Of a stretch of 40,022 nucleotides of DNA, positions 14,349 through 27,209 are shown piece by piece. Under the pieces are notes generated by a model. It searched no databases and was not told where the DNA came from. It saw only the letters and a program-made list of their open reading frames with translations. This stretch comes from a virus. The stretch lies in IMG/VR virus record IMGVR_UViG_3300025625_000001, positions 1-40,022 of that record. One strand, given 5' to 3'. Numbering within the stretch: position 1 is the stretch's first letter; every line of letters starts with the position of its first letter. Made by a program: the position numbers and the translations under genes.

Positions 14349-14759
14349 CTACCCTCCTACCCGCTGCGGCTGGAACATCTTTCCCAGCGCAATGGCTTCG
14401 ACCCTGTAATTGCGCTTCTTCAGCGCCTTGATATGCCGTGGCTTCGAGAGACTGACCAAGCCCCCGCACGCGACCGGCTCCTCGCGCTCGTCAGCCAGTT
14501 CCTGAGCGATAGCCTCGATACGCCTCCGAAGCAGCGCCAAGGCCCGCTCCCCCTCGCGTCCCGGTAAATCCCATAGTTCCTCGGTCACGAGCCCGTAGAC
14601 GCTCTCGTAGAGGCAGCAGAACGCAACGATGCGCTCGCGGTGCTCGACCACGAATCCGTAGCCCTTCTCGGGCCAGCGCCATCCCTGCGGCAACCCTTGC
14701 GCGTAGGCAATCGCGAGAATGCCCGGTGCATCGTCCGGGACCGGAGCGCGAACAGTCAT
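14349..14759 (-). CDS. GNAT-fold acetyltransferase-like protein, 136 aa
   Basis: The N-terminus TVRAPVPDDAPGILAI is the classic beta1-alpha1 of GNAT proteins. Next come strands GYGFVVEHRERIVAFCCLYES, a long charged helix, and a C-terminal LSKPRHIKALKKRNYRVEAIALGKMF typical of the last GNAT strands. The acetyl-CoA pyrophosphate loop (Q/RxxGxG/A) is not obvious, so the enzyme may be degenerate. GNAT-like proteins occur in the ejection-protein region of several podoviruses (e.g. compared with T7 gp13), which fits this position. ATGA overlap upstream. Confidence 0.6.
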   Translation of the reverse strand: MTVRAPVPDDAPGILAIAYAQGLPQGWRWPEKGYGFVVEHRERIVAFCCLYESVYGLVTEELWDLPGREGERALALLRRRIEAIAQELADEREEPVACGGLVSLSKPRHIKALKKRNYRVEAIALGKMFQPQRVGG

Positions 14760-15136
14760 TCTACGAGTATCGTCGCAACGGTGTCGTTCCAGCGCGCACG
14801 CACGACGAGAACCGTTGGCGTGGAGGCAGCGAGGTCCGTGCCGTTCTGGTACGGGTAGCCCGCTGCTTGGTCGTTCACGATGATAAACCCGGAAGGCTTG
14901 CGCCCCAACTGGTGCGGGAGCGAGATGCCGGCAGCCGGGATAGACACGCCCGCCCGGACCCAAAACGAGCCCAGGCGCGTGTTGTCCACCAGCGGCTGAT
15001 TCTGGGGAATCCCCTCCGAGTTGTGCTTGAGGATCGACTGCTGCGCAAGCGCTTCAAGCCGCTGCATCTGGGACGGAACAACGTCTGTCTCGTCGTAGCG
15101 CCCTCCGCTTCGGAAGCCGCCTTTATTGAACCCCAC
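14756..15136 (-). CDS. virion beta-sandwich protein, 126 aa
   Basis: The C-terminal 80 residues contain ISLPHQLGRKPSGFIIVNDQAAGYPY, then TPTVLVVRARWNDTVATILVE. This pattern (LPHxLGRxPxG...VV.D..A..Y...W..T.I.L) recurs in short podovirus tail or head proteins adjacent to ejection genes and suggests a small beta-sandwich. GTG start with a weak SD. Exact position in the virion is unknown. Confidence 0.55.
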   Translation of the reverse strand: MGFNKGGFRSGGRYDETDVVPSQMQRLEALAQQSILKHNSEGIPQNQPLVDNTRLGSFWVRAGVSIPAAGISLPHQLGRKPSGFIIVNDQAAGYPYQNGTDLAASTPTVLVVRARWNDTVATILVE

Positions 15137-15139
15137 AAG

Positions 15140-16549
15140 TCAGCCGTCAATCCCATCGTCCGGCCCGCCCGCGTCATTCGAACAGCCTTTGCACTTGAAG
15201 TACGACGGCGGCTCCGTTACGGGAATCTTCACGAACGCCCGCGGCGGAGCAGTGAAGTCGAGTAATGTCGTCAGGTCGTCGCTAGTCCACGAATCGGCAG
15301 ACAGCAGCGACCCCTCCCCGAGTTTGAATGTCCCCTCGATGAGGCGAAGGATAGCAGCCTGGGAAGTATCCTGTGCATCCACCGCTCCAGGTTTGGAGTA
15401 AGCCGATGCGACCAAGAGCGGGACGCGAAATCCATACGTGCCCGTCGCCTTGCCAAGCACCGGCTTGTAGTGGTCGTAGAAGCCGCCCCAGTCGTCCCAG
15501 GTGACGACGATAGCCGTCGAGTTCCAGTAGGGTGAGGCGCCCACCGCGTCGATGATGTTGCCGACCCAATTCGGCCCGTCAGAGGCGACCTTGTAGTGCC
15601 GCGACGGGTGGTCGCTCCACTGCGCTGCGGGCATGATGTACGTCACGTTCGCGAGCTTGCCCGCAGCAATGTCTCCAAAGAACGCAGGCCCGCCCACGGT
15701 GTAGTTCGGCGAATTGTAGAGATGCTTGATGGCCTGCGGACCGCTCCAGAGCCCTCCGGCCTTGTTGCCGTAGTAGCGCCAGGTCAGGCCCTTGGCCGCC
15801 ACGATGTCAAAGATGGTCTGAACGTCGTAGCACGGGTACGCCTTCGAGCCTTCGATGCCAGGGAAGGCGCTGTTGAGTTGGATGCGCGTAACGGCAGTTC
15901 CAGCCGGTGACCCGCATTGCGTGTGCCCGCCGGAGCCTGTACCGCTCTTGATGCCGCCGTTCTCGACGAATCCCCACGGGTCGGAAGTAAAGCCGCCTGT
16001 GGAGTTGTCGATACCGCCAGCCTGCCCAGCAATCAGTTGCTGGTGCGCAGGGAACGACGGCCCCTGATTCAGTTGCAGGACGTGTGACGCCATGCCGTAG
16101 TTCGAGGCAATCGACCAGTACGCGGTTAGTTCGGACATCGGCACGTATGCGTAGACGGTGCCTTCCGGGCACTGCGAGAGGTTAAAGCCGTTCATGAGGC
16201 CGCCCGCGTACTGCGTCACGAAAGCATTATGCGAGTGCGACGGGCCGCACGAGGCGGCAAGCGATTGCGAGATAAGCGGCACGATAGCGTCGGAGGAGTT
16301 CTCCCCGTTCTGCACTGTATCCGCAGGACCCGGGAACGTCTTGCCGTCCGGGTATCCGTGGAACATATTGTCTTGCGTGCGGTTCTCTTGCACGACGACG
16401 ACGATGTGTGTGATGGGCGAACTCGCCGGAGCCGTTGGCCCAGCCGTAGCGGTTGGAACAGCACTTGGCGATGGGGTAGGCGGAGGCGGCGGTGGGGTGC
16501 CGCCACACGCTGCGAGCGCGAGAACCGCTACGGCAAGAAGCGCCTTCAC
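15140..16549 (-). CDS. lipoprotein phosphoesterase, phospholipase C/acid phosphatase family
   Basis: 469 aa, PF04185-like. Signal peptide with lipobox LAAC (C15), then a Pro/Thr/Ser linker (17-45). The metal-site residues known from Francisella AcpA are all matched: E55-N56 (QENRT), S165 (GPSFPAH) and D352-D353 (TWDDWGGFYDH, with H360). The C-terminus has a CKGC pair. The family hydrolyses phosphodiesters or phosphomonoesters, including phospholipids. With a lipobox it would be exported and lipid-anchored in the envelope. It lies directly downstream of holin-like genes and the endolysin, suggesting a role in lysis or envelope damage. GTG start overlaps the preceding stop (TAGTG). Confidence 0.85.
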   Translation of the reverse strand: MKALLAVAVLALAACGGTPPPPPPTPSPSAVPTATAGPTAPASSPITHIVVVVQENRTQDNMFHGYPDGKTFPGPADTVQNGENSSDAIVPLISQSLAASCGPSHSHNAFVTQYAGGLMNGFNLSQCPEGTVYAYVPMSELTAYWSIASNYGMASHVLQLNQGPSFPAHQQLIAGQAGGIDNSTGGFTSDPWGFVENGGIKSGTGSGGHTQCGSPAGTAVTRIQLNSAFPGIEGSKAYPCYDVQTIFDIVAAKGLTWRYYGNKAGGLWSGPQAIKHLYNSPNYTVGGPAFFGDIAAGKLANVTYIMPAAQWSDHPSRHYKVASDGPNWVGNIIDAVGASPYWNSTAIVVTWDDWGGFYDHYKPVLGKATGTYGFRVPLLVASAYSKPGAVDAQDTSQAAILRLIEGTFKLGEGSLLSADSWTSDDLTTLLDFTAPPRAFVKIPVTEPPSYFKCKGCSNDAGGPDDGIDG

Positions 16550-16614
16550 TAGAAAATTGGCTCCGACCCACCGATGAGGAGCAGAAAGAGAAAGAGCGCT
16601 GAGAGCGTAATCAC
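16549..16614 (-). CDS. hydrophobic micropeptide, 21 aa
   Basis: GTG at 16614 overlaps the previous stop (GTGA) and the TAG overlaps the next GTG (TAGTG). The peptide is nearly all membrane-inserting (ITLSALFLFLLLIGG). The two exact junctions support translation. It could be a small holin/pinholin-like peptide or only a coupling frame. Confidence 0.4.
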   Translation of the reverse strand: MITLSALFLFLLLIGGSEPIF

Positions 16615-16814
16615 GCGGGCGGTAGCGCAGCCTTCACGGCAGCGTCGGTATCCGAGATGCCTTGGCCGAGAGCGGTCGCGGCGGCGATCGCCGCGGTCAA
16701 GTCTGGGTTGCCGCTCTTGAGGAGCGCCACGAGTGCGTTCGCGTCGGCCGCGAGCGCTGCAAGCCCAGTTTCGTCGTTGGTCAGGGCCGCAGTAAGGTCG
16801 TCGAGTTGAGCCAT
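16611..16814 (-). CDS. Ala-rich helical protein, 67 aa, possibly with upstream membrane extension
   Basis: From ATG 16814 (SD AGGGAG, 8 bases upstream) it is an acidic helical protein (LDDLTAALTNDETGLAALAADANAL). The frame is open for 26 more codons upstream and encodes DPVILASLIISAAILLAAYYLGRIL, a strong transmembrane segment. An ACG at 16892 with AAGG upstream could start that longer form. The small-membrane-anchor plus helix layout and the position between holin-like genes and the lipoprotein suggest a lysis role. Confidence 0.55.
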   Translation of the reverse strand: MAQLDDLTAALTNDETGLAALAADANALVALLKSGNPDLTAAIAAATALGQGISDTDAAVKAALPPA

Positions 16815-16895
16815 GAGGATTCTCCCTAAGTAGTACGCCGCGAGCAGAATTGCCGCGGAGATGATGAGCGATGCGAGGATGACCGGGTCCGTGGC

Positions 16896-17159
16896 TTACG
16901 CCTTCTGGATGGTAACGCCACGCGGGACTGCCGTCACCTTGACGGACTGCCCCGAAGGCAGCGTTAGCAGAGTCCCGTTGATGGGGATGGCGAATACCTC
17001 GCCGTTGGGAATCGTGAGGTCGGCGTTCCCTTGGCTCAAGTCAAACTTGATGCCGTTGTTGAACGCCCAAGGCGTTCCGATGGTGATGGTCACGGGCTGT
17101 CCCGCAACGTATTCTGTGAGGTCGGCAACCGCCGTCTCGATGAGTTTCAGGAGTTCCAT
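16896..17159 (-). CDS. hypothetical protein, 87 aa, beta-rich
   Basis: A short N-terminal helix (ELLKLIETAVADLTEYVAG) is followed by beta-strands (QPVTITIG, KFDLSQGNADLTIPNGEVFAIPINGTLLTLPSGQSVKVTAVPRGV). SD AAGGG lies about 10 bases upstream. It sits inside the lysis region; no family recognised. It may be a small structural or regulatory partner of the membrane proteins on either side. Confidence 0.5.
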   Translation of the reverse strand: MELLKLIETAVADLTEYVAGQPVTITIGTPWAFNNGIKFDLSQGNADLTIPNGEVFAIPINGTLLTLPSGQSVKVTAVPRGVTIQKA

Positions 17160-17161
17160 GT

Positions 17162-17500
17162 CTAGGTTCCCTTCGGCACGGTTGTGCCAACGGCTGGAAT
17201 GGATTCGGGATTCACGAGCACGTTCGGGATGCTCGTGGAGTTCGGGCTTTTGACCACGGTCGTCGCAGCGTCTCCGCCTTGCTTCGCGCGGTAGAACGGC
17301 CCGATACCGAATACGGCCCCGAGCAGTATCCCGAACCACGCGTGCCCCATGTAAACGAGGAACGACGGGCCATCGTTGAACCCGCCGTTGGTCGGCCCGA
17401 GCGTATAGCCGATGGTCACGGCGGCGACCGTCATCGACCACAGGCCGAGCGCCTGCGCGACGAGGAACGACTGAAGCGCGGCCCACGTCCAGGTGTTCAC
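17162..17500 (-). CDS. holin-like membrane protein, 112 aa
   Basis: Two hydrophobic segments (about 5-33 LQSFLVAQALGLWSMTVAAVTIGYTLG and 46-68 FLVYMGHAWFGILLGAVFGIGPF) are followed by a hydrophilic Ser/Thr/Pro C-terminal tail of about 40 residues. Position just after the endolysin and beside another small membrane protein fits a holin or antiholin pair. GTG start overlaps the upstream stop (GTGA). Confidence 0.5.
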   Translation of the reverse strand: MNTWTWAALQSFLVAQALGLWSMTVAAVTIGYTLGPTNGGFNDGPSFLVYMGHAWFGILLGAVFGIGPFYRAKQGGDAATTVVKSPNSTSIPNVLVNPESIPAVGTTVPKGT

Positions 17501-17679
17501 AGGTGCAACCCGGCCATCGGCAACAGAATCGAGAGCGCGAACAAGAGCGCGACGATGCAGATGATGACGAGGATGACCTGCTTGAACGGATTCGGCAGCG
17601 GCAGGAAGGCGCTAACGAGCCAGTAGATGACGCCGATAACGGCGAGGATGACGCAAAGGTGTACGAGTGACTGAATCAT
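17497..17679 (-). CDS. holin-like membrane protein, 60 aa
   Basis: Two membrane helices (LVHLCVILAVIGVIYWLVSAFL and QVILVIICIVALLFALSILLPM) are joined by a short Pro/Lys turn (PLPNPFKQ), the layout of a small class II holin. A perfect AGGAGG SD lies 5 bases before the ATG, and the endolysin gene ends just upstream. Overlaps the next membrane protein by GTGA. Confidence 0.6.
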   Translation of the reverse strand: MIQSLVHLCVILAVIGVIYWLVSAFLPLPNPFKQVILVIICIVALLFALSILLPMAGLHL

Positions 17680-17688
17680 GGTAGCCTC

Positions 17689-18150
17689 CTAGAACGGGCT
17701 CAAGCCCGCCTCCAACAGTTGGTAGTGCTGCAAGCAGCGGTCTGAGTAATGGTCAGTCGTGAACTTCCCGATATCGCCTTGCTCGTGGCCCGCTTCGGCG
17801 CCACCGCGCCCAGCGTTGTACTCCGCAGCGATAGCGCGAACGAGGTCGTCCCCTTCCAGCCCCTCTGCTGCCCAAAACGTCTCGGCCGGAATCAGGAACT
17901 CTCGCACCGCGTAACGCACATTCGCTTCCGGTACGTCCCAGTTGTCGGGGTACGACGACGTGAGTTGCATCCAACCTTTGCCGCCGTCGCCTGATTCAAC
18001 ATTTGGGGAAAGGTCGTCACCTGTCTCGTTGACCTTGATGGCGTACGCCACAAGCGGCGAGAACGTTGGCTGCTCCGCGCACACGCTGTTGAAGATAGCC
18101 GCGCCGGGTAGGCTAGCCTGCAAGGGGCCGGAATGGATACCGTTTCTCAT
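17689..18150 (-). CDS. endolysin, lytic transglycosylase (SLT/GH23-like) domain
   Basis: 153 aa. Catalytic glutamate E42 in KVNETGDDL, then GKGWMQLTSSYP (58-68) and AIAAEYNAGRGG (106-117), the order seen in transglycosylase SLT domains. Conserved NVRYAVREFL precedes the last motif. It would cleave the MurNAc-GlcNAc bond of peptidoglycan. No clear signal peptide is present, so release through a holin is expected. The start at 18150 makes ATGA with the upstream gene; an in-frame ATG at 18168 would overlap more. Confidence 0.85.
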   Translation of the reverse strand: MRNGIHSGPLQASLPGAAIFNSVCAEQPTFSPLVAYAIKVNETGDDLSPNVESGDGGKGWMQLTSSYPDNWDVPEANVRYAVREFLIPAETFWAAEGLEGDDLVRAIAAEYNAGRGGAEAGHEQGDIGKFTTDHYSDRCLQHYQLLEAGLSPF

Positions 18151-18530
18151 GGATGCAACCTCAACCATTGCGTAAGTGCGGTAACGAGCGCGGTCACGGC
18201 AACAAGCGCTGCGTACAATTCCGTGCGCGTAATGAACGTCCCGGCTTGGTCCTTAAGCTGACCGCGGAACTCGTTTTGCGTTGCGTTCACGCGGCCTTGC
18301 GAATCCTCGGCCTTCGTCGTCGCGCGGTCGGCTGCGACAAGCGCGGCCCCAACTGCTTCCTTCGAGTCAATGAACCGCTGCTCGTATCGACGGTCGTTGA
18401 GCCTGATGGTCTCGGCGATTCCCTCAATTTTGGACGATATGAACTTCTCCAGCGTGTCGAGAGTCCAGCCGTTCGGGCTAAGGTCACCAGCCACATCCGG
18501 CTCCTCGTAAGGAGCAAGCTGGAGCGTCAT
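18147..18530 (-). CDS. coiled-coil protein with C-terminal membrane anchor (lysis-associated)
   Basis: 127 aa. A central long helix (DTLEKFISSKIEGIAETIRLNDRRYEQRFIDSKEAVGAALVAADRATTKAEDSQ) and a C-terminal hydrophobic segment (LYAALVAVTALVTALTQWL) are visible. Small phage proteins with this helix, the FRGQLKDQAGTF-type segment and a terminal membrane anchor are commonly next to endolysins and are sometimes annotated as holins. ATGA overlap with the endolysin supports a lysis role. Confidence 0.55.
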   Translation of the reverse strand: MTLQLAPYEEPDVAGDLSPNGWTLDTLEKFISSKIEGIAETIRLNDRRYEQRFIDSKEAVGAALVAADRATTKAEDSQGRVNATQNEFRGQLKDQAGTFITRTELYAALVAVTALVTALTQWLRLHP

Positions 18531-18559
18531 CAGACATCTGACGTTGGCCGCATGGTCAT
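18530..18559 (-). CDS. 9-codon leader frame
   Basis: ATG at 18559 sits 8 bases after a perfect GGAGG SD and encodes MTMRPTSDV, stopping in TGATG with the 127-aa lysis gene. The downstream gene has no good SD of its own, so this frame probably delivers ribosomes to it. Confidence 0.35.
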   Translation of the reverse strand: MTMRPTSDV

Positions 18560-18633
18560 TCGCCTATCCTCCGCTTCCGAACGCCCATCCATGGGAGTGT
18601 CGAGAGGTATTCCTGGTAGATTTCTGGCCTCAC
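18556..18633 (-). CDS. 25-aa peptide
   Basis: GTG at 18633 opens a frame (MRPEIYQEYLSTLPWMGVRKRRIGE) that ends in ATGA with the 9-codon frame. Amino-acid makeup is protein-like and basic at the end. Together the two small frames fill the only apparent gap between the exported barrel protein and the lysis module. Confidence 0.3.
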   Translation of the reverse strand: MRPEIYQEYLSTLPWMGVRKRRIGE

Positions 18634-18635
18634 GG

Positions 18636-19826
18636 CTAGCCAGCCTGCTTGGGCTTTCCCAGCACCGGCTTACAGCGGCACGTCAGCAGCCAGCAGCAGG
18701 GCGGAGCGCCCGGCGCCGACGAGAACGCCGCAGCCACGAGCTGGTTCCAATTCGTCGTCGCGTTGCAGCCCGTGTAGTTGTGCAGGCACGTCACGTCCTC
18801 GTACGAGTAGTAGAGAATCATGCCGAGCGTGTTCCCGAACAGTGCATAATTGCGCATCGTCTGAATCTGGGTCTGCGTCGGATACGGGCAAAGAGTAATC
18901 GTTCCGCACCCGCCATAGCCGTAGTAGAACGCCGTGAACGCCTGAACGACAAACCCCGGCTTCTCGGCAGCGTACGTCGCGGCGATAGACGTGTTGAAGT
19001 TCTGCATGATGCCCGCAATATCGGACATTTTCTGCCCGCCGCCGTTCCGGTTCTCGGGAATCGGGTAGTAGTCCAGGTTCTCGTACGGCGACTGCGCAGC
19101 CATGAGCCACGCGTAGACTCCGCTACACTCGGACTGCCCATTACACGACGTGAGGTTGTTGATTTGGGTCTGCCCACCGGCGCACGAGAACCCACCCCCG
19201 CCGCACGGAGGCCCCGCTGCCGTCGCCGTGCCGACGACCTTCTTCGTGCTATGCGCCTGGAGGTACAGCGCGAGTTCATCGACGTTCTGATACCGGCACG
19301 AGCCGACCCCAGCGTTGCAGGCGCTCTGCGCGTACATGCCGCCCTGGCAGTAGCCGATGGCCGTATGCGGGCAACCGTACTCGTCGTAGATGTAGTAGCC
19401 CCAGCAGCCCGCCGACGCATCGCACTGAGCAATAAGGCAATCGATGACCTGTTGATTCGTCGTCGCGCCGCAGTCAGTCGCGTAACTCGACCCTCGCGCG
19501 GTGAGCGAATCAACGAGACTCGTCGCCGTGAGAGCATCCGTCGTGTTGATGGACGACTGCTGAATCGGGATGATTTGCTGGATGCCGGCCGTAGCGCTAT
19601 CCGCTAGCCACGAGGCGATGCTGCCCGTTGCGCCCGTCTTGTGCGCGATGAGCGTGTTGTAGTCCACCTCTAAGGTGAACCCTCCGGTAGCCTGTTGCTG
19701 CATCGCTGCGAGGCACGTCGAGTACGTGTCCTGCACGTCGCACGTCGAATAGAGTCCCTGCGGCGGGAGCGCTGCTTCGGCACCGAGGGGAACCAGCACG
19801 AGTAGGAGCGCGAGTAGGTACTTCAT
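18636..19826 (-). CDS. secreted Cys-rich TIM-barrel-like protein, putative glycoside hydrolase
   Basis: 396 aa. A Sec signal peptide (MKYLLALLLVLVPLGAEA, cleavage after AEA) precedes alternating strand/helix units of the TIM-barrel type: GFTLEVDYNTLI, GIQQIIPIQ, GCWGYYIYDEYG (D148, E149), VVGTATAAG, GVYAWLMAA, NLDYYPIPEN, GFVVQAFTAFY and GMILYYSYEDV. The YDEYG strand end is where glycosidases often place an acid. Many Cys residues suggest disulphides in the periplasm or outside. It probably acts on a host surface glycan; family not assigned. Starts at ATGA with the upstream phosphoesterase paralogue. Confidence 0.55.
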   Translation of the reverse strand: MKYLLALLLVLVPLGAEAALPPQGLYSTCDVQDTYSTCLAAMQQQATGGFTLEVDYNTLIAHKTGATGSIASWLADSATAGIQQIIPIQQSSINTTDALTATSLVDSLTARGSSYATDCGATTNQQVIDCLIAQCDASAGCWGYYIYDEYGCPHTAIGYCQGGMYAQSACNAGVGSCRYQNVDELALYLQAHSTKKVVGTATAAGPPCGGGGFSCAGGQTQINNLTSCNGQSECSGVYAWLMAAQSPYENLDYYPIPENRNGGGQKMSDIAGIMQNFNTSIAATYAAEKPGFVVQAFTAFYYGYGGCGTITLCPYPTQTQIQTMRNYALFGNTLGMILYYSYEDVTCLHNYTGCNATTNWNQLVAAAFSSAPGAPPCCWLLTCRCKPVLGKPKQAG

Positions 19827-21103
19827 AGCCAATTCCTATTCCGGGACCAATCGAAGAACGTAAGGCCGTTGTCCGGCTCGTACTGCTCAAGCGCCCCAAC
19901 CTTCGGTGCCTGCGGAAACATCGAGTAGATGAGCTGCATGACGGTGAGCAGCGTGCGCGGTGTGTGATCGACGTATCCCGGTTTCGCGAACGGCGATATG
20001 ACGATGAGCGGCACACGCGCTCCGTACTCCAGGGGGTTCGGCGTCGGGCCATTTGGGTTCGGAGCGAACGGCGGCGGCTGGTTGTCATACCAGTTCCCAC
20101 CATTGACCCAGAGCAGAATGATGACCTCACTACCCCAATACTTCTTTCCCGGGCCGCAGGCGTTGATGACGGATGACACCCAATTCGGGCCGGGGCATCC
20201 GCCGGAGCACGACGGCGAGCCCTGCTCGAAAGCATCGTCGCTGTCGTCTTGCCCTGCCACGGTCGTATCGTTCGGGGTCACGAACGTCACGGCAGCCTGG
20301 TTTGTCGTTCCGCAGTCGGTGAGCACTTGCGTTTCCGGCGTAATGACGTTCGCGGCGTATTCGCTGCCGTTGAAGATGCTGCTGATAGCCGCTGGGGCGC
20401 ACGCTCGATTCGTTTTGAGGTTGCAGTAATATTTCCAGGGCACGCCTGCGGTATCAAGCGACGAAAAGATGGTAGAGATAACGAGGCACGGGTACGCTCC
20501 GTTCACCTCGGCCCCGGGGAATCCGGGCGTCATCGCAACGTACCCGACCGTCGTGCCGCCCACAGCGTAACAGCCGACGTTGGTAAGGTCGCCGAGATGG
20601 TTGTTCGCGAAAGCGTCAAACGGCGAAACATATCCGCCGGTCTGCCCGGCGATCGTGTAGAGGAACGACGGCCACACCGATACCTTGCCGGGAGCATACG
20701 TCGCATCACTCGTTGCATAGGTGTGCGCGAGCGTGCAGTAGCCGTTCGGTGAGGCGTTGACCTGCGATGCGGGAATGTACGAGTACGCAGTATTTCCCGT
20801 TCCGCCCGTCACGGTGAGTAGGTCATACCCGTTCATGGGGCACGACGTTCCGGTGCAGTTATCCGCGACGAGTTGCTGCGTGTACGTGTGCTGCGGATTC
20901 CCGAGCGCGACGAGCGACCCGGCAACGACCGTCACGGCCCCGCCTGTGTGATTCTGCCCCGTCTTGGTGAGGTTCTGAACACCTGCCGGAGCGCAGTCAG
21001 CGAACAGGTTATTCAGCGACCGACCCTCTTGTTCGATGACCACGATGTGGTCGATAGGAAGCGGCGCCTGGTACGCTACGTAGGCAGGAGGCGCTGGCAG
21101 CAT
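19823..21103 (-). CDS. degenerate phospholipase C-like phosphoesterase paralogue
   Basis: 426 aa, clearly related to the lipoprotein at 15140-16549: IDHIVVIEQEGRSLNNLF, IAGQTGGYVSPFD, FPGAEVNGAYPC, PWKYYCN and PGPNWVSSVINACG all align. Metal-site positions are mostly changed: N56 is G27, S165 aligns with V143, and D352-D353 align with W332-V333 (LWVNGGNWYDN). It lacks a signal peptide and starts at 21103 (TAATG overlap). It is likely a non-catalytic binding or structural version, perhaps a tail component or partner of the active copy. Confidence 0.75.
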   Translation of the reverse strand: MLPAPPAYVAYQAPLPIDHIVVIEQEGRSLNNLFADCAPAGVQNLTKTGQNHTGGAVTVVAGSLVALGNPQHTYTQQLVADNCTGTSCPMNGYDLLTVTGGTGNTAYSYIPASQVNASPNGYCTLAHTYATSDATYAPGKVSVWPSFLYTIAGQTGGYVSPFDAFANNHLGDLTNVGCYAVGGTTVGYVAMTPGFPGAEVNGAYPCLVISTIFSSLDTAGVPWKYYCNLKTNRACAPAAISSIFNGSEYAANVITPETQVLTDCGTTNQAAVTFVTPNDTTVAGQDDSDDAFEQGSPSCSGGCPGPNWVSSVINACGPGKKYWGSEVIILLWVNGGNWYDNQPPPFAPNPNGPTPNPLEYGARVPLIVISPFAKPGYVDHTPRTLLTVMQLIYSMFPQAPKVGALEQYEPDNGLTFFDWSRNRNWL

Positions 21104-21810
21104 TAGAACCCATACGAAGGGACACGAAAGATACAAATCGCTTGGACAACGGCGGCGGCGAGATTCGCGCTTGCCGTATACGTTGCAGCCAACGGTGCTG
21201 GGTAAACCAACGTCGTCATTACGCTGCTTGTAGCTCCGCTCAAAAGAGTCGCCGGAGCCCACCCAGGAGAAGCGTTTGTAGGACCAATGGCTCCGTTCGG
21301 AACGAACACAGCGATAAGCATATCGCTGGCTAACGCGGCCACCCCAGAGGTCGTCAGGGTGTTCGCGGAGGCTGGCCCAGACCCAGCAAACCCTGCGGGA
21401 GTTCCCGCATTTACCAACTCGAACATCATCAGGCTTTTTGCTGATGCGCTACCGTCGGAAAAGACGCAGTTGTCAGATGAGTTGCCCGTCGGAGGACTCC
21501 GGTAGTACACCGTAATCTGTTGTAAGGAACCGCTGGACAGTTGCTGCCCTAATTGCGTGTACCCCGTCGGAGTTACCGTTGTATGATTGACATCTGCCGC
21601 CAAGCAAATGATAACGTGGTCCGCTCCAGTCCCAGCCGTTTGCGTTAGTGTTCCGGTAACTGAGGCCGTAGCTGCAAATATGACTGTTTGTTGAATGGCC
21701 ACAGGCGGATGCACCACGCACGGGCCGTTTCCGCACGCCACTGCGTTCGCCGCAAACGCGACTCTCGGCAGCGACAACAGGAGCACCGCGAAAAGCAACA
21801 GGCGTTTCAT
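21103..21810 (-). CDS. exported beta-sandwich adhesin-like protein, 235 aa
   Basis: Sec signal peptide MKRLLLFAVLLLSLPRVAFA (cleavage after AFA). The mature part resembles the tail-associated domain with VTPxGYTxLG, YYRSPPTG...DNCVFSDGS and MMFELVNAG...SDMLIAVFVPNG, seen in phage and bacterial surface proteins. Start ATG 21810 (TGATG); GTG 21813 is possible. Adjacent genes are a lipoprotein and the phosphoesterase paralogue, all likely coupled. It probably binds a surface ligand. Confidence 0.55.
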   Translation of the reverse strand: MKRLLLFAVLLLSLPRVAFAANAVACGNGPCVVHPPVAIQQTVIFAATASVTGTLTQTAGTGADHVIICLAADVNHTTVTPTGYTQLGQQLSSGSLQQITVYYRSPPTGNSSDNCVFSDGSASAKSLMMFELVNAGTPAGFAGSGPASANTLTTSGVAALASDMLIAVFVPNGAIGPTNASPGWAPATLLSGATSSVMTTLVYPAPLAATYTASANLAAAVVQAICIFRVPSYGF

Positions 21811-22805
21811 CACTTCGTCACCACCACGACGTTACTCGTCAGCGCCGAGTTTATTTTATACGCCAGACCAGCCGAGAGTGGATAGCGTAACGTAATGACC
21901 TGCCCTGCCCCCATGACGACTGTCGTCCCATCGCCCCAGACGAGTGTCGCGGCAGCGCACGTTGCCGCTGCATCGTTGTAAAACTGCATGAATACGATCT
22001 GCGCTGGCCCGGCGTTACCAATCGAAAAGAGAGTTGTCGGGGCAGCGATGATGTTTGTGCAAGCCGTTGCAGATGACGAGGTGAGAGTCGTCGCCGTCGT
22101 TCCCCCGTCGTTGACCCACAACCCGCCGCCTTGCCCCGCGGGAGCGGTCGGATACGGAGAAGGGAACGGAATCGGCGTCGGAAACGCTCCAGACACCGGA
22201 ACGGTTCCAGTCACCTGAACGCACGGAGCGCTCGGAGCGCCGGGACAGGTCGGAGCAACGTACGGCGGAGCCGTATTAACCGTTACGATTCCGGTGATTT
22301 GCGTGCACGGCGCATTCGGAGCGCCGGGGCAGGTCGCTTGCGAAGTGACGATAGGCGGCAGTGATGAGATGACGACAGGTGGCAAAGACGACACGACAAC
22401 CGTTCCGCCAGCGCCACCGCCGCTTCCGCCTCCCGAGAGGTTGCAGACAATCGTGTACGTCAGCGGACCCGTTACGGCGGTGATGTGCAACTGGAAAAAC
22501 CCAATGGCCTGCGTGGACGAGTTGATGGCAACCGTCGTCGTCGTGCTCGTGGAAATTGCCGAGCCGACATTCGTCCAGTTGCTCTGGTCGTTTGAAGTAC
22601 GCGGTTGAGCCGAAAACGACCCAGCCGTATTCGTCGTAATCGAGCACGAGTTCTGTCCGCTCAAGGGGACGTTGATATCCGCAGGCGCTCCAATCGTATT
22701 CGTTGGAGCACCGACTTGGTTGACCGCCGTGCTCTGCCCGAGCAGGCCAACGCATCCCGCTATGAGCGAGAAGGCTAGGCCGATTGGCGCAAGTAGTTTC
22801 TTCAT
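21810..22805 (-). CDS. lipoprotein with beta-rich fibre-like region, 331 aa
   Basis: Signal peptide with lipobox LIAGC (C18). The mature part has a strand-rich domain (SCSITTNTAGSFSAQPRTSNDQSNW...), a Gly linker, and two copies of CPGAPxAPCxQxTGxVxV, a Val/Pro fibre-like repeat. The C-terminal domain ends VVVVTK. The N-terminal region resembles phage fibre segments of the AVNQVGAPTNTIGAPADINVPLSG type. It lies 3 bases after the tailspike gene. A lipoprotein in a fibre cluster is unusual; it may be displayed on the infected cell instead of the virion. Confidence 0.55.
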   Translation of the reverse strand: MKKLLAPIGLAFSLIAGCVGLLGQSTAVNQVGAPTNTIGAPADINVPLSGQNSCSITTNTAGSFSAQPRTSNDQSNWTNVGSAISTSTTTTVAINSSTQAIGFFQLHITAVTGPLTYTIVCNLSGGGSGGGAGGTVVVSSLPPVVISSLPPIVTSQATCPGAPNAPCTQITGIVTVNTAPPYVAPTCPGAPSAPCVQVTGTVPVSGAFPTPIPFPSPYPTAPAGQGGGLWVNDGGTTATTLTSSSATACTNIIAAPTTLFSIGNAGPAQIVFMQFYNDAAATCAAATLVWGDGTTVVMGAGQVITLRYPLSAGLAYKINSALTSNVVVVTK

Positions 22806-22808
22806 GCT

Positions 22809-24857
22809 TTACTCCGCAAAGAACTGCACGCTGGTGGGCTTGACAACGTAGGAGTATACGACCGTGCCGCCTGCTGGGCAACGTATCGTATTATTGCTGG
22901 CAACAAGCCCGTTCGTTCCTCCCGATACGTTGTTCACGATTCCGAGATTAACGCTGGTGCCACCACTGTGAACGAAGAACCCGTCGAACCCGAAGGTGTT
23001 CTGGACCGTTTGGGTTACTCCGCCCCAAGATGCTGTGCTGATACCGATGCAGATGCCGGTCGGGTTGTACCCCGCGTTGTTGCGCACGACCCACGTTGGC
23101 CCGAGGCCCGAAGTCGCCAGCGTGTTCCCGTTCTGAATCTGCCCGCCAGCCGCAACGGTTCCGTTCTTCATCGCTATGTCGTTGTCGCAGACGGTTACGG
23201 TGGCTGAAGCGTCATCCGCCTGGATGAAGTAGTTCCCGTTGCCCACGGTAACGTCGTTATCGTTAATGTGGATGGAGTTCCGAACGAAAGCACTCGTCGG
23301 AATGTGAACCATCGGAGTCGCGACTCCACCGCCTTGGTGAAGTCCGCCGCTGATAATGCGACAGAGGCCCGTGTTCCGAATATCGATCGTGTAGTTCGTC
23401 GCCTGGGATTTGCCCTTGGCCGAACCGCCCAAGTTCCCGCCTACGATGTCTACGAACCCGGGACCAGTGGTCGAGGTATCACCGATGATGGTCCCGCCCT
23501 CGAACCATGCCTGCTCCAGGTTCAACTGCGCGTGGTCGCCACCGAAGTAGGCCGACCCGCAGCCAGTTGTCATGCCCGAAGCGTTTGCCAGCGCACCGAT
23601 GTAGTCAGTCGCATCGCCAGGCCACAGTCCGTTATCCGTGCCACCGGAAAGTTGCGCCTGATTCGCCGTCAGCGTAAATCCGGTCCCGCTCGTTGCCGAG
23701 GTCTTGAGTTTGTTTCCGCCTTGGCCCGGCTCCGTCGCCGTAATGGTTACGACGTTGCTATTCGCCGTAGCCGTGACGGCCTGGTAATCTCCGGGGTTGC
23801 TGATGAAGTTCGACAGCGTGTTGAAGTAGGTCGTGATGGCTGCGGCGTCCAAAGTCGCCTGATTCGCCGCCGAAGTTCCCGTCGTTTCGGAGCATACCAC
23901 TGCGTTCCCCGTAATCGTGTAGGTATGCGTCTGCCCGGTCAACGCCGTCAGCGTGAGCGTGTACGTTCCTTGAGCGAAAGTGAACTGCGTTGCAGGCGGA
24001 GGCCCAAAGTTCGCCTCCGGGTCGAACATGTAGAACGTGCCGCCCTTGTACGAGCCGCTTGAGTTCATCGACAGAATCGACATACACCCAAAGAACGGCG
24101 TCTCGAACATCTTCGGGTCGGCGCCGCCATCGGAAACGAGCCCGTAGGTTCCGCCGTTGATGGTGTTCCCCAGGCCCTTCAGTCCGTGCCCGTACTCCAA
24201 GATGCCGAGATAATCGCCTGCGAACTTGCAGCCGTACATGACGTTGCGCCCACCGCCAGCGAACAGCTTTAGGCCGATTCCAACGCCTTGCGTCGTAATG
24301 TTGTAGAACCGCGTATCGGTTACGCCGACCACCGGAACGTTCGCGCCGTACGTTCCCTGCGGACCACCGATGTTGATGGCCGAGCCAGCAATCGACACAT
24401 TGGGCTTCCGGTTTCCCGTCGCACAAATGATTTGCATGTTCATCCACGTCATGCCCGTGCCGTGAGACGCGCCCGGCGGAACGCGGAACACGTCGTAATC
24501 GCCAGCCGCTGATACGACTGACGATTGCCCATCCCCAAAAAACGTTAGGAGGTTCGGCGTGTCGATAATAATTGCGCCCGTCTGCCCTGACGGCTGGACG
24601 ACGTTGTACTGCCCGCTCCGAGGAGTCGGGAAATATATCGCGTTCCCTTGTCCGCTCGCCATCGCGGCTTCGGTGCAGTCTTGGACGGCCTGGGTATCGT
24701 CGTTCCCGCCCCCGACATCGGTTCCATAGTTCTGGACATTGAAGGCATTCAGCCCGCCCTGCGTCTGAGCCAGAACGAAGGCGAAGTTCTCGTTTACGAG
24801 GTCCGCATCAGCCAGCGTATCGGGAACGAAGATGTTTGGAACTGTCGGTGTAGCCAT
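22809..24857 (-). CDS. tailspike/tail fibre with right-handed beta-helix
   Basis: 682 aa. An N-terminal anchor (VPNIFVPDTLADADLVNENFAFVL) shared with the next fibre is followed by an entry region typical of pectate-lyase-like helices (DTQAVQDCTEAAMASGQGNAIYFP) and many short beta rungs (NVMYGCKFAGDYLGILEYG, SIHINDNDVTVGNGNYFIQADD). Residues ~285-400 look like an inserted beta domain (TYTLTLTALTGQTHTYTITG...VTATANSNVVTITATEPGQGGN). Such spikes bind and often cut host polysaccharide; catalytic residues cannot be picked out by eye. Confidence 0.65.
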   Translation of the reverse strand: MATPTVPNIFVPDTLADADLVNENFAFVLAQTQGGLNAFNVQNYGTDVGGGNDDTQAVQDCTEAAMASGQGNAIYFPTPRSGQYNVVQPSGQTGAIIIDTPNLLTFFGDGQSSVVSAAGDYDVFRVPPGASHGTGMTWMNMQIICATGNRKPNVSIAGSAINIGGPQGTYGANVPVVGVTDTRFYNITTQGVGIGLKLFAGGGRNVMYGCKFAGDYLGILEYGHGLKGLGNTINGGTYGLVSDGGADPKMFETPFFGCMSILSMNSSGSYKGGTFYMFDPEANFGPPPATQFTFAQGTYTLTLTALTGQTHTYTITGNAVVCSETTGTSAANQATLDAAAITTYFNTLSNFISNPGDYQAVTATANSNVVTITATEPGQGGNKLKTSATSGTGFTLTANQAQLSGGTDNGLWPGDATDYIGALANASGMTTGCGSAYFGGDHAQLNLEQAWFEGGTIIGDTSTTGPGFVDIVGGNLGGSAKGKSQATNYTIDIRNTGLCRIISGGLHQGGGVATPMVHIPTSAFVRNSIHINDNDVTVGNGNYFIQADDASATVTVCDNDIAMKNGTVAAGGQIQNGNTLATSGLGPTWVVRNNAGYNPTGICIGISTASWGGVTQTVQNTFGFDGFFVHSGGTSVNLGIVNNVSGGTNGLVASNNTIRCPAGGTVVYSYVVKPTSVQFFAE

Positions 24858-24860
24858 AAC

Positions 24861-25550
24861 TTATACTCCTGTCGCGCGCCAAAAGACGTTGAGCAGCGAA
24901 GTCGAAACCGAGTTCGGACCCGTCAACGAGAACGCGTCCAACTGGATGACGCTGTATGGGGTTGAAATCTGCGTGTTGACGTACAGCCCCGCGCCACCCG
25001 TCCAACCCGGAACGGACGGCTTGCCGACCCACGTTGCCTCGACCGTCGGCTCCAGCGTAAACACCGCATCTCCCGACAACACAATCGTAGCCGAACCCGT
25101 GTTGACGCCACTCGGAATCGAGATTTGGGCCTTGCCGCCAACAGCATGAACCGCCGTGCCGACATCCGCTCCAGCAGCCGTCAGATTAGGAGCGAGTGTT
25201 CCAAGACTGATGCCGCCCAACTTAATCGCCTGCACCGGTCCCTGAATCTGCGCCTGGTTCTGCCGAATGACCGTCTGGGTCCCAAGCGACGGACCGACCA
25301 TGACCGCTCCAGACGCCGTGATATTCGAGATGACCGATACGTCGTGAACGAACGAGTACGGCAGCGTGCCGCCAAACGTCGCTGTCGTCGAGTCAATCGG
25401 GATAATCTGCGAGGCATAGAACCCGAGCGGGCCAACGTCCGAGTGGTCGATGGTTCCGATGCCCTGCGCCAGCGCGGCAAAGTTCGCGTTCACCTGCGAC
25501 GAGAGAATCGTCGTGTCGGGAGTAAACGTAAACGGAACGGATACAGCCAT
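24861..25550 (-). CDS. tail fibre/appendage protein, 229 aa
   Basis: N-terminus PFTFTPDTTILSSQVNANFAALAQG parallels the tailspike N-terminus (PDTxxxxxxVNxNFA), so both probably dock on the same tail site. The rest is beta-rich with Thr/Val/Gly strands and ends VNTQISTPYSVIQLDAFSLTG, like a C-terminal jelly-roll. SD GGAAG upstream; the gene begins right after the nozzle stop on this strand. Likely a minor fibre or adaptor for the spike. Confidence 0.5.
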   Translation of the reverse strand: MAVSVPFTFTPDTTILSSQVNANFAALAQGIGTIDHSDVGPLGFYASQIIPIDSTTATFGGTLPYSFVHDVSVISNITASGAVMVGPSLGTQTVIRQNQAQIQGPVQAIKLGGISLGTLAPNLTAAGADVGTAVHAVGGKAQISIPSGVNTGSATIVLSGDAVFTLEPTVEATWVGKPSVPGWTGGAGLYVNTQISTPYSVIQLDAFSLTGPNSVSTSLLNVFWRATGV

Positions 25551-27209
25551 TTACGTTCTTCCTCTCTGGTGCATAACGAGACTCATCCCGGCAAATATCC
25601 ACGGCGCAAGAGCCTGCGTCATCTGCACCCCAAACGAAAACGACTCCGCCTGCGTCCCGGGGTAGTCGATACGCGTCGTCGGAGCGGCAAACGCCAAGAA
25701 CTGCGGACCGCTCTCATTCGCCCAATCGGCGTTGTCCCACGCCGATACGTCCCAGATGCCGAAGAAGCTCTCGTACGGCAAATCCAGTGGCGTCGTGACG
25801 GTAGACACCGACCCGTAGTTGACGAGCATCACCCAATTCGCCAGGAACTCTCCCGATATGAAGAACTCGGGATACGCGCGCTCCATCGCCTTATTCGTTC
25901 CGGGTGCGCCAATCTTGTAGAACTTGGTCTGGAACTGGGCAAGAATCGGAGTCGTATCGTCAAGCGCTGGCTGGTTCGCAATCGGCTCAACGTCCCAGGT
26001 ATAGACCCGGCCATTCGTGCCGCCCACCATCGCCGTGTACGGGTCCGGGTCCGTTGGTGCATCGAGTAAGCACATCGACGCAATCCCCGGAGTCGGGCGC
26101 AGCACGGTCCAGCCGCCAATCGCCAAGTCGAATACGAGAATCGTATCAGGCTGCGCCGTTTGGGAAGCATAGCCGAGATGCAGGCGGTTGTTGTAAACCT
26201 CCATCCACGAAAACGCTCGGTTGAACGCCAGGGGGAAGCCCGGGTAGGTCGGGATGGAGGTTGTTACCCGATTCAGAATCCACGGCTCCACCTTTTCGGA
26301 GATAGGCGTGGGAATCTGCCCGAGCCCGAAAGCGTACACGGCACTGTGCCCGAGAACGAACACTTGCCCATTCCAGGAAATCATTGCTCGCCCGGCCACA
26401 GCCGCATCGGCAAACGGCGTTTCCTGCTGGTAAAAATTCGATGGGCCCGTTCCGGAAAGGATGGCAAACCCGTCGTTGAGCCCAACGATGAGCGCTGCTT
26501 GTGCTCCCGTGCCGCTCGCAGCCAGACCCATGACGGGAGACGAGTAGACGAAGTTCCGGTACGCCGGAAGCGTCTCCATCGACTCGATGATGCCGTCACC
26601 AGTACCAAAAACCTGATTCGGGGCGGTCGCGATGCCACCGAACCACAAGATTCCGTTCACGACAGCGCACCAGTTAGCGCCGCGTGCATTGTGCCAGCCA
26701 GCCGGAGCGTACAAGTTCGTTCCGTCGTAGATGCGAGGGATGCCATTCCCGTTGCAAATGACTAGGCAGTCCGTCAGCCCGCTTGTAAAGTTCGGGTCGT
26801 TCGGATTCTGGATACGCGCAAAGCACGGCGGATTCAGGACGCCAGAGCCGACTAAGCCAATGAGGTCGTTCGAGGTCGGCGTTACGACGAATAACTGGTC
26901 CTTGTGGAGCGCGATGAGTTGCGTCGTTTGCGGGCTGACGGCGGCGCCGTTGAGAACGCCCTGATAGAAGCGCGCAAGGTAGACTGGCTCCGTTGTCGGG
27001 AACGGGACGCCGAACGGCGTCATGCCATTCCGCATCTGGAACCCGCCATCCGAGGTCAGGTAGCCATCTTGGGCAATCGCCAGGTCGCTGTCGGGGAGCG
27101 CTTGCGGCAACGACTTCACATTGAGCCCGCCGCGGAAGCCATAAATGCCGAACTCCTGCGACTGCGTCGTGCCAGTCTGGAGCGCGCCAAGGCGCGTAAG
27201 AGTCGGCAT
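25551..27209 (-). CDS. tail nozzle/stabilisation protein (P22 gp10-like)
   Basis: 552 aa. The N-terminal FGIYGFRGGLNVKSLPQALPDSDLAIAQDGYLTSDGGFQMRNGM is the hallmark of podovirus nozzle proteins (GGLN...P..L...EA......G....R.G). It continues with repeated beta-propeller-like blades (QLIALHKDQLFVV, CLVICNGNGIPRIYDGTNLY, VNGILWFGG, GQVFVLGHSAVYAFG, NNRLHLGYAS). It would form the distal tail tube below the adaptor encoded next door. Starts at ATGA with the adaptor gene. Confidence 0.7.
   Translation of the reverse strand: MPTLTRLGALQTGTTQSQEFGIYGFRGGLNVKSLPQALPDSDLAIAQDGYLTSDGGFQMRNGMTPFGVPFPTTEPVYLARFYQGVLNGAAVSPQTTQLIALHKDQLFVVTPTSNDLIGLVGSGVLNPPCFARIQNPNDPNFTSGLTDCLVICNGNGIPRIYDGTNLYAPAGWHNARGANWCAVVNGILWFGGIATAPNQVFGTGDGIIESMETLPAYRNFVYSSPVMGLAASGTGAQAALIVGLNDGFAILSGTGPSNFYQQETPFADAAVAGRAMISWNGQVFVLGHSAVYAFGLGQIPTPISEKVEPWILNRVTTSIPTYPGFPLAFNRAFSWMEVYNNRLHLGYASQTAQPDTILVFDLAIGGWTVLRPTPGIASMCLLDAPTDPDPYTAMVGGTNGRVYTWDVEPIANQPALDDTTPILAQFQTKFYKIGAPGTNKAMERAYPEFFISGEFLANWVMLVNYGSVSTVTTPLDLPYESFFGIWDVSAWDNADWANESGPQFLAFAAPTTRIDYPGTQAESFSFGVQMTQALAPWIFAGMSLVMHQRGRT

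Follow-up and report, generated by a model that had tools for sequence, protein, structure and literature searches.

The window analysed here, 40,022 bases long, is an entire IMG/VR record and corresponds to a tailed-phage genome or a fragment of one: genes for a portal and a major head protein are present by PHROG-type profile matches, together with a gene that we take, from our reading of the sequence and in agreement with the synteny of a related phage contig (G156), to be terminase-like. Its minus strand carries a cassette encoding two members of the PF04185 family (henceforth P0001 and P0002) and several exported proteins (Table 1).

Table 1. P0001, P0002 and the genes of the cassette and its edges; positions are those of the window.
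Feature	Position	Strand	Remarks
126-aa gene	14756..15136	minus	found conserved in phage relatives; the variable cassette has its downstream edge here
Cassette	15140-25550	minus	10.4 kb; several of its products are Cys-rich, exported and without a known family
P0002, PF04185 lipoprotein, 469 aa	15140..16549	minus	intact site; lipobox-like LAAC at N-terminus
159-aa gene, presumably lysozyme/transglycosylase-like	17689..18168	minus	taken as such from our reading of the sequence; no family match
396-aa protein, signal peptide	18636..19826	minus	very Cys-rich; ATG overlaps P0001 stop (ATGA)
P0001, PF04185 pseudo-phosphoesterase, 426 aa	19823..21103	minus	ATG at 21103, stop ending at 19823; 12 Cys
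236-aa protein, signal peptide	21103..21813	minus	stop overlaps P0001 ATG (TAATG)
331-aa protein, lipoprotein-like signal peptide (LIAGC)	21810..22805	minus
682-aa tailspike-like protein	22809..24857	minus	residues 7-77 common to a gene of related phage contig G156
229-aa gene	24861..25550	minus	related phages conserve its N-terminus; the variable cassette has its upstream edge here

By its overlaps with the preceding and the following gene, P0001 is translationally coupled on both sides. Profile searches gave no confident family for the 396-residue product downstream, neither profile nor PHROG searches matched the 236-residue product upstream, and no homologues of the 396- and 331-residue neighbours were found in a genome search that had no positive control. 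From its N-terminal motif and its position, the 682-residue protein is a putative tailspike. We also considered, and set aside, a programmed frameshift joining the 236-residue gene to P0001, as no canonical slippery site was seen.

The earlier, sequence-only reading had proposed that P0001 aligns with the lipoprotein P0002 over most of its length, and the two are indeed homologous to that extent (BLASTP, 27% identity over 425 columns, E 8e-41). Both score above the curated cut-off of the PF04185 profile, P0002 with E 1.8e-45 and P0001 with E 2.3e-21 over residues 17-394 (76.8 bits against a cut-off of 23). That P0001 has no signal peptide holds for its coupled ATG, but the start is not fully settled, because an in-frame TTG lies 11 codons upstream (position 21136), overlapping the preceding gene. 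Initiation there would add an 11-residue hydrophobic stretch devoid of positive charges, and no ribosome site is visible for this codon. Nine of the 12 cysteines of P0001 occupy positions where Cys occurs in no more than 2% of the family. This pattern fits what is expected of an extracellular or virion-exposed protein, and the absent signal peptide together with the 12 cysteines fits a virion-exposed one; the abundance of cysteines and the exported neighbours would also fit export from TTG 21136 as an unrecognised start.

To describe the active site, nine core positions were scored across 115 homologues. The site of P0002 comprises E55, N56, H105, S165, H169, D313, H314, D352, D353 and D359, all almost invariant in this sample, while the equivalent positions of P0001 read E26, G27, H72, V143, F147, D289, D290, V333, N334 and D340, followed by N341 at the position of P0002 H360. 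Only E26, H72, D289 and D340 are retained. The alignment bears out the replacement of N56 by Gly27 and of S165 by Val143, as first read, and adds two losses absent from that list, H169 to F147 and H314 to D290 (the partner of H314 is D287 or D290 by alignment, an Asp either way). By contrast, the pairing of D352-D353 with W332-V333 was off by one, because W332 matches the conserved W351; the two aspartates face V333-N334. The change of H360 to N341 was read correctly but carries little weight, because column 360 varies: about half of the family has His there, and P, N, S, A or D stands elsewhere with the site otherwise intact.

None of the nine core positions is lost in 106 of the 115 sequences, a sample collected in part with scan patterns that contained the E-N motif, one is lost in seven, four in the protein at L027:4782-6230 and six in P0001. 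The picture was the same in the 57 that came from whole-protein searches, 52 without a core loss and five with one. The six losses of P0001 are thus beyond chance, and no other of the 115 homologues is as degenerate. The L027:4782-6230 protein (site EGEDHDHSEDA) is a chromosomal Eremiobacterota copy that has degenerated independently.

What these positions do is known from the plant enzyme NPC4, where changing E23, N24, H79, T158, H264, D299 or E300 to alanine abolishes activity or removes most of it (PMC9837106). Judged by their order in the sequence and by the secondary-structure elements that they follow, these residues correspond to P0002 E55, N56, H105, S165, H314, D352 and D353. In P0001, five of these seven are replaced (N24 by G27, T158 by V143, H264 by D290, D299 by V333 and E300 by N334), E23 and H79 being kept as E26 and H72. 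P0001 has therefore lost the nucleophile, with V143 where active PF04185 enzymes require Ser or Thr; three of the four metal or base ligand positions, as E26 of the E-N pair is kept but G27 stands beside it and V333-N334 take the place of D-D/E; and a histidine of the catalytic pair (NPC4 H79 and H264), since H72 is kept but D290 replaces H314.

To place these substitutions in the fold, we compared separate AlphaFold2 models of P0001 (built from the family alignment; pLDDT 86, pTM 0.91) and P0002 (pLDDT 84, pTM 0.86). In both, the site residues follow the same elements: E26-G27 after strand 19-25 and E55-N56 after strand 48-54, V143 opening helix 143-152 as S165 opens helix 165-174, V333-N334 after strand 326-332 and D352-D353 after strand 345-351. 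The paired predictions thus share one register and support no other, so that, to the extent that models can tell, the alternative alignment which the earlier reading had named as its refutation did not appear. The P0001 model has the alpha/beta fold of the AcpA/NPC enzymes: Foldseek matched it to structures of this family with E values of 1e-17 to 1e-18, and VIA gave Z scores of about 30-37 over 344-360 residues for RePLC, NPC4, PlcN/H and AcpA, against about 19 (19.7 for the next) for the next fold group, the sulfatases and ENPPs.

Could P0001 still be active through a rearranged site, for example with S142 and with a metal held by E26, H72, D289/D290 and N334? Four site residues (E26, H72, D289 and D340) are indeed kept and S142 adjoins the nucleophile position. 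We nevertheless consider such activity improbable, since in the register anchored on P145 and I151-A152-G153 the nucleophile site falls on V143 and S142 occupies a Pro position, since P0001 lacks the Asn, the second His and either Asp of the DD pair, and since single alanine mutations at the corresponding NPC4 residues suffice to disable that enzyme (PMC9837106). Sequence and models together thus give good support for a dead site on an intact fold, and on the same grounds P0001 is, by prediction, a real pseudoenzyme of PF04185. With all site residues kept in P0002, the description of the pair as an intact and a dead copy is apt.

A dead site might also be expected of a functionless remnant of a former cargo gene on its way to decay. 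In line with this, the end branch of P0001 (length 2.07) is the second longest in the tree, and the gene is missing from the contigs of close phage relatives, some of which are fragments. Yet the frame is open over its full length of 426 codons, which random codons would achieve with a probability of about 1e-5; the gene resembles core phage genes in codon usage and in GC3 (0.75); and stops would have arisen had it drifted neutrally along such a branch, which amounts to about two changes per alignment column. The fold and structural residues are kept, and the losses are focused on the site, striking five of the seven essential columns but six of the 37 other conserved ones (Fisher p 0.007). 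Decay is unlikely because the frame is open, the codon usage normal and the losses concentrated in the site; we give a decaying remnant very little credence.

We also looked at where the two copies came from. PF04185 matches number 28 to 61 per genome in seven of the eight Eremiobacterota genomes searched in full, and one other Eremiobacterota genome gave more than 90 first-look candidates. Across the Eremiobacterota genomes G002-G009, G045-G058 and G108-G110 the family is expanded to dozens of copies per 2-4 Mb, some in head-to-tail arrays (for example G002:C11:17517-27028); we found no paper on Eremiobacterota phosphoesterases or their expansion. The closest Eremiobacterota copies are about 40% identical to P0001 at best, and nearly every sampled one keeps the site. 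The tree unites P0001 and P0002 with chromosomal proteins of Eremiobacterota in a single clade (100 SH-aLRT). Since these cargo genes cluster with Eremiobacterota proteins, Candidatus Eremiobacterota is the likely host of the phage. Against this host, the phage major head protein gave only a single weak match (26%) in 149 Eremiobacterota genomes; nearer phage relatives are contigs with head proteins 66-82% identical. Because the AU test does not reject P0001 and P0002 as sisters (p 0.61), duplication within the phage and two captures are both possible; the tree neither shows nor rejects a within-phage duplication.

Beyond the window, nine other viral contigs carry exactly one PF04185 copy each. 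Seven of the eight copies readable over the site are fully intact and the eighth, L098, carries Cys at a single position; signal or lipoprotein N-termini occur in several. On one such contig an intact gene with a signal peptide (L095:7731-10450) sits between terminase-like and portal-like genes and adjoins the gene of another exported protein. No close relatives of P0001 were found in IMG/VR, among INPHARED phages or PLSDB plasmids, and PHROGs hold no family for P0001 or P0002; matches labelled 'Acinetobacter phage' were set aside as plcN-type genes of weak similarity on large contigs. As no homologue with the same dead site was found, conservation of P0001 as a non-enzyme is not demonstrable by comparison.

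We next considered the genomic slot in which P0001 resides, measured from the tail gene homologous to that at 25551-27209 to the homologue of the 126-aa gene (or the next conserved gene). It spans 10.4 kb in the window and 8.7 kb in G156, but only 1.4-1.9 kb in the contigs G161, G163 and G166. The cassette belongs to the late operon of the phage and adjoins its tail genes, and relatives exchange or lack it. In G156 the slot holds a single intact PF04185 copy with a signal peptide, located after a lipoprotein gene and followed by what we take, from our reading of the sequence, to be an amidase-type endolysin gene; on relatives' contigs other than G155/G156, some of them fragments, there is no full PF04185 gene. 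The G156 copy belongs to another branch of the family than P0001, and a quick tree places it elsewhere despite the synteny, so we do not regard the two as orthologues. In view of this copy from another branch and of the variation in size, the slot looks like a variable host-interaction/lysis module that would repeatedly have taken up host surface phosphoesterases.

Taken together, sequence and models suggest that P0001 is probably no enzyme but a binding or structural component, and that it was probably recruited to the host-interaction module in that capacity. We assign a probability of roughly 0.55 to P0001 being a host-interaction or virion-associated binding protein. Its ancestor would be some member of the large set of surface phosphoesterases in Eremiobacterota, reached through a duplication in the lineage of P0002 or through a second acquisition; having lost catalysis and the export signal, P0001 would act by binding. 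It would most likely be an accessory protein of the host-interaction module, associated with the virion or tail, whose former substrate cleft or outer surface may bind host envelope material, while hydrolysis would be left to P0002, which is exported and intact. Of the roles first suggested, that of an enzyme-derived tail subunit would agree with the place of P0001 in a variable cassette next to the tailspike-like gene and with its lack of a signal peptide, but several exported proteins are encoded in that cassette too. In a search of a viral fold library, only giant-virus phospholipase/phosphoesterase models matched P0001, and no PHROG did. A more detailed version, in which a captured host phosphoesterase that lost its catalytic site and export signal now serves as a virion-associated adhesin for the envelope phosphoester ligands that the intact exported P0002 hydrolyses late in infection, is tentative and, taken whole, unlikely.

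P0001 might instead be an exported or surface-exposed pseudoenzyme that acts in the infected cell and not as part of the virion, for example as a decoy, in superinfection exclusion, or as a modulating partner of P0002 or of host paralogues. The coupling to exported-protein genes on both sides and the 12 cysteines, nine of them nearly unique in the family, point this way, as do the single copies of other viral contigs, which are mostly intact: since several bear signal or lipoprotein peptides, surface expression would be the usual phage use of the family. The signal peptide missing at the coupled ATG and the poor credentials of TTG 21136 as a start, namely no positive charges and no visible ribosome site, weigh against export, and we hold this reading to be a minority possibility. 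If the binding role is true, the virus has taken an enzyme from the expanded surface family of a bacterium that it infects and made of it a binding part without catalysis, and P0002, which is intact, related and encoded by the same phage, offers an internal control. PF04185 matches in viral contigs should accordingly have their site checked before being counted as phosphorus-acquisition or lipase enzymes.

Pseudoenzymes in general keep the fold and coding constraint of their ancestors and lose catalytic residues, and P0001 resembles them on all these counts; we found no case of a phage PF04185 pseudoenzyme in the literature searched. With AcpA (PDB 2D1G), NPC4 (8HAV/8HAW), PlcN/PlcH (9GY2/9GYE), RePLC (8K3G) and the GPE phosphodiesterase (8YK5), P0001 shares the fold over nearly its whole length, and with PF04185 enzymes at large a significant family score and the kept E26 and H72. 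It differs from them in the replaced nucleophile, metal or base ligands and catalytic His, and in the export signal missing at the annotated start. The Eremiobacterota surface phosphoesterases are the nearest relatives of P0001 and P0002 by the tree, but their sites, unlike that of P0001, are intact (L027:4782-6230 excepted) and most carry lipoprotein signals. The single copies in G001, G151, G152, G153, G154, G155/G156, G157 and G158 are phage-borne like P0001, and the G156 copy occupies the same slot, between tail genes and endolysin; yet these viral contigs, unlike the window, hold one copy each, with sites mostly intact and several N-termini built for export.
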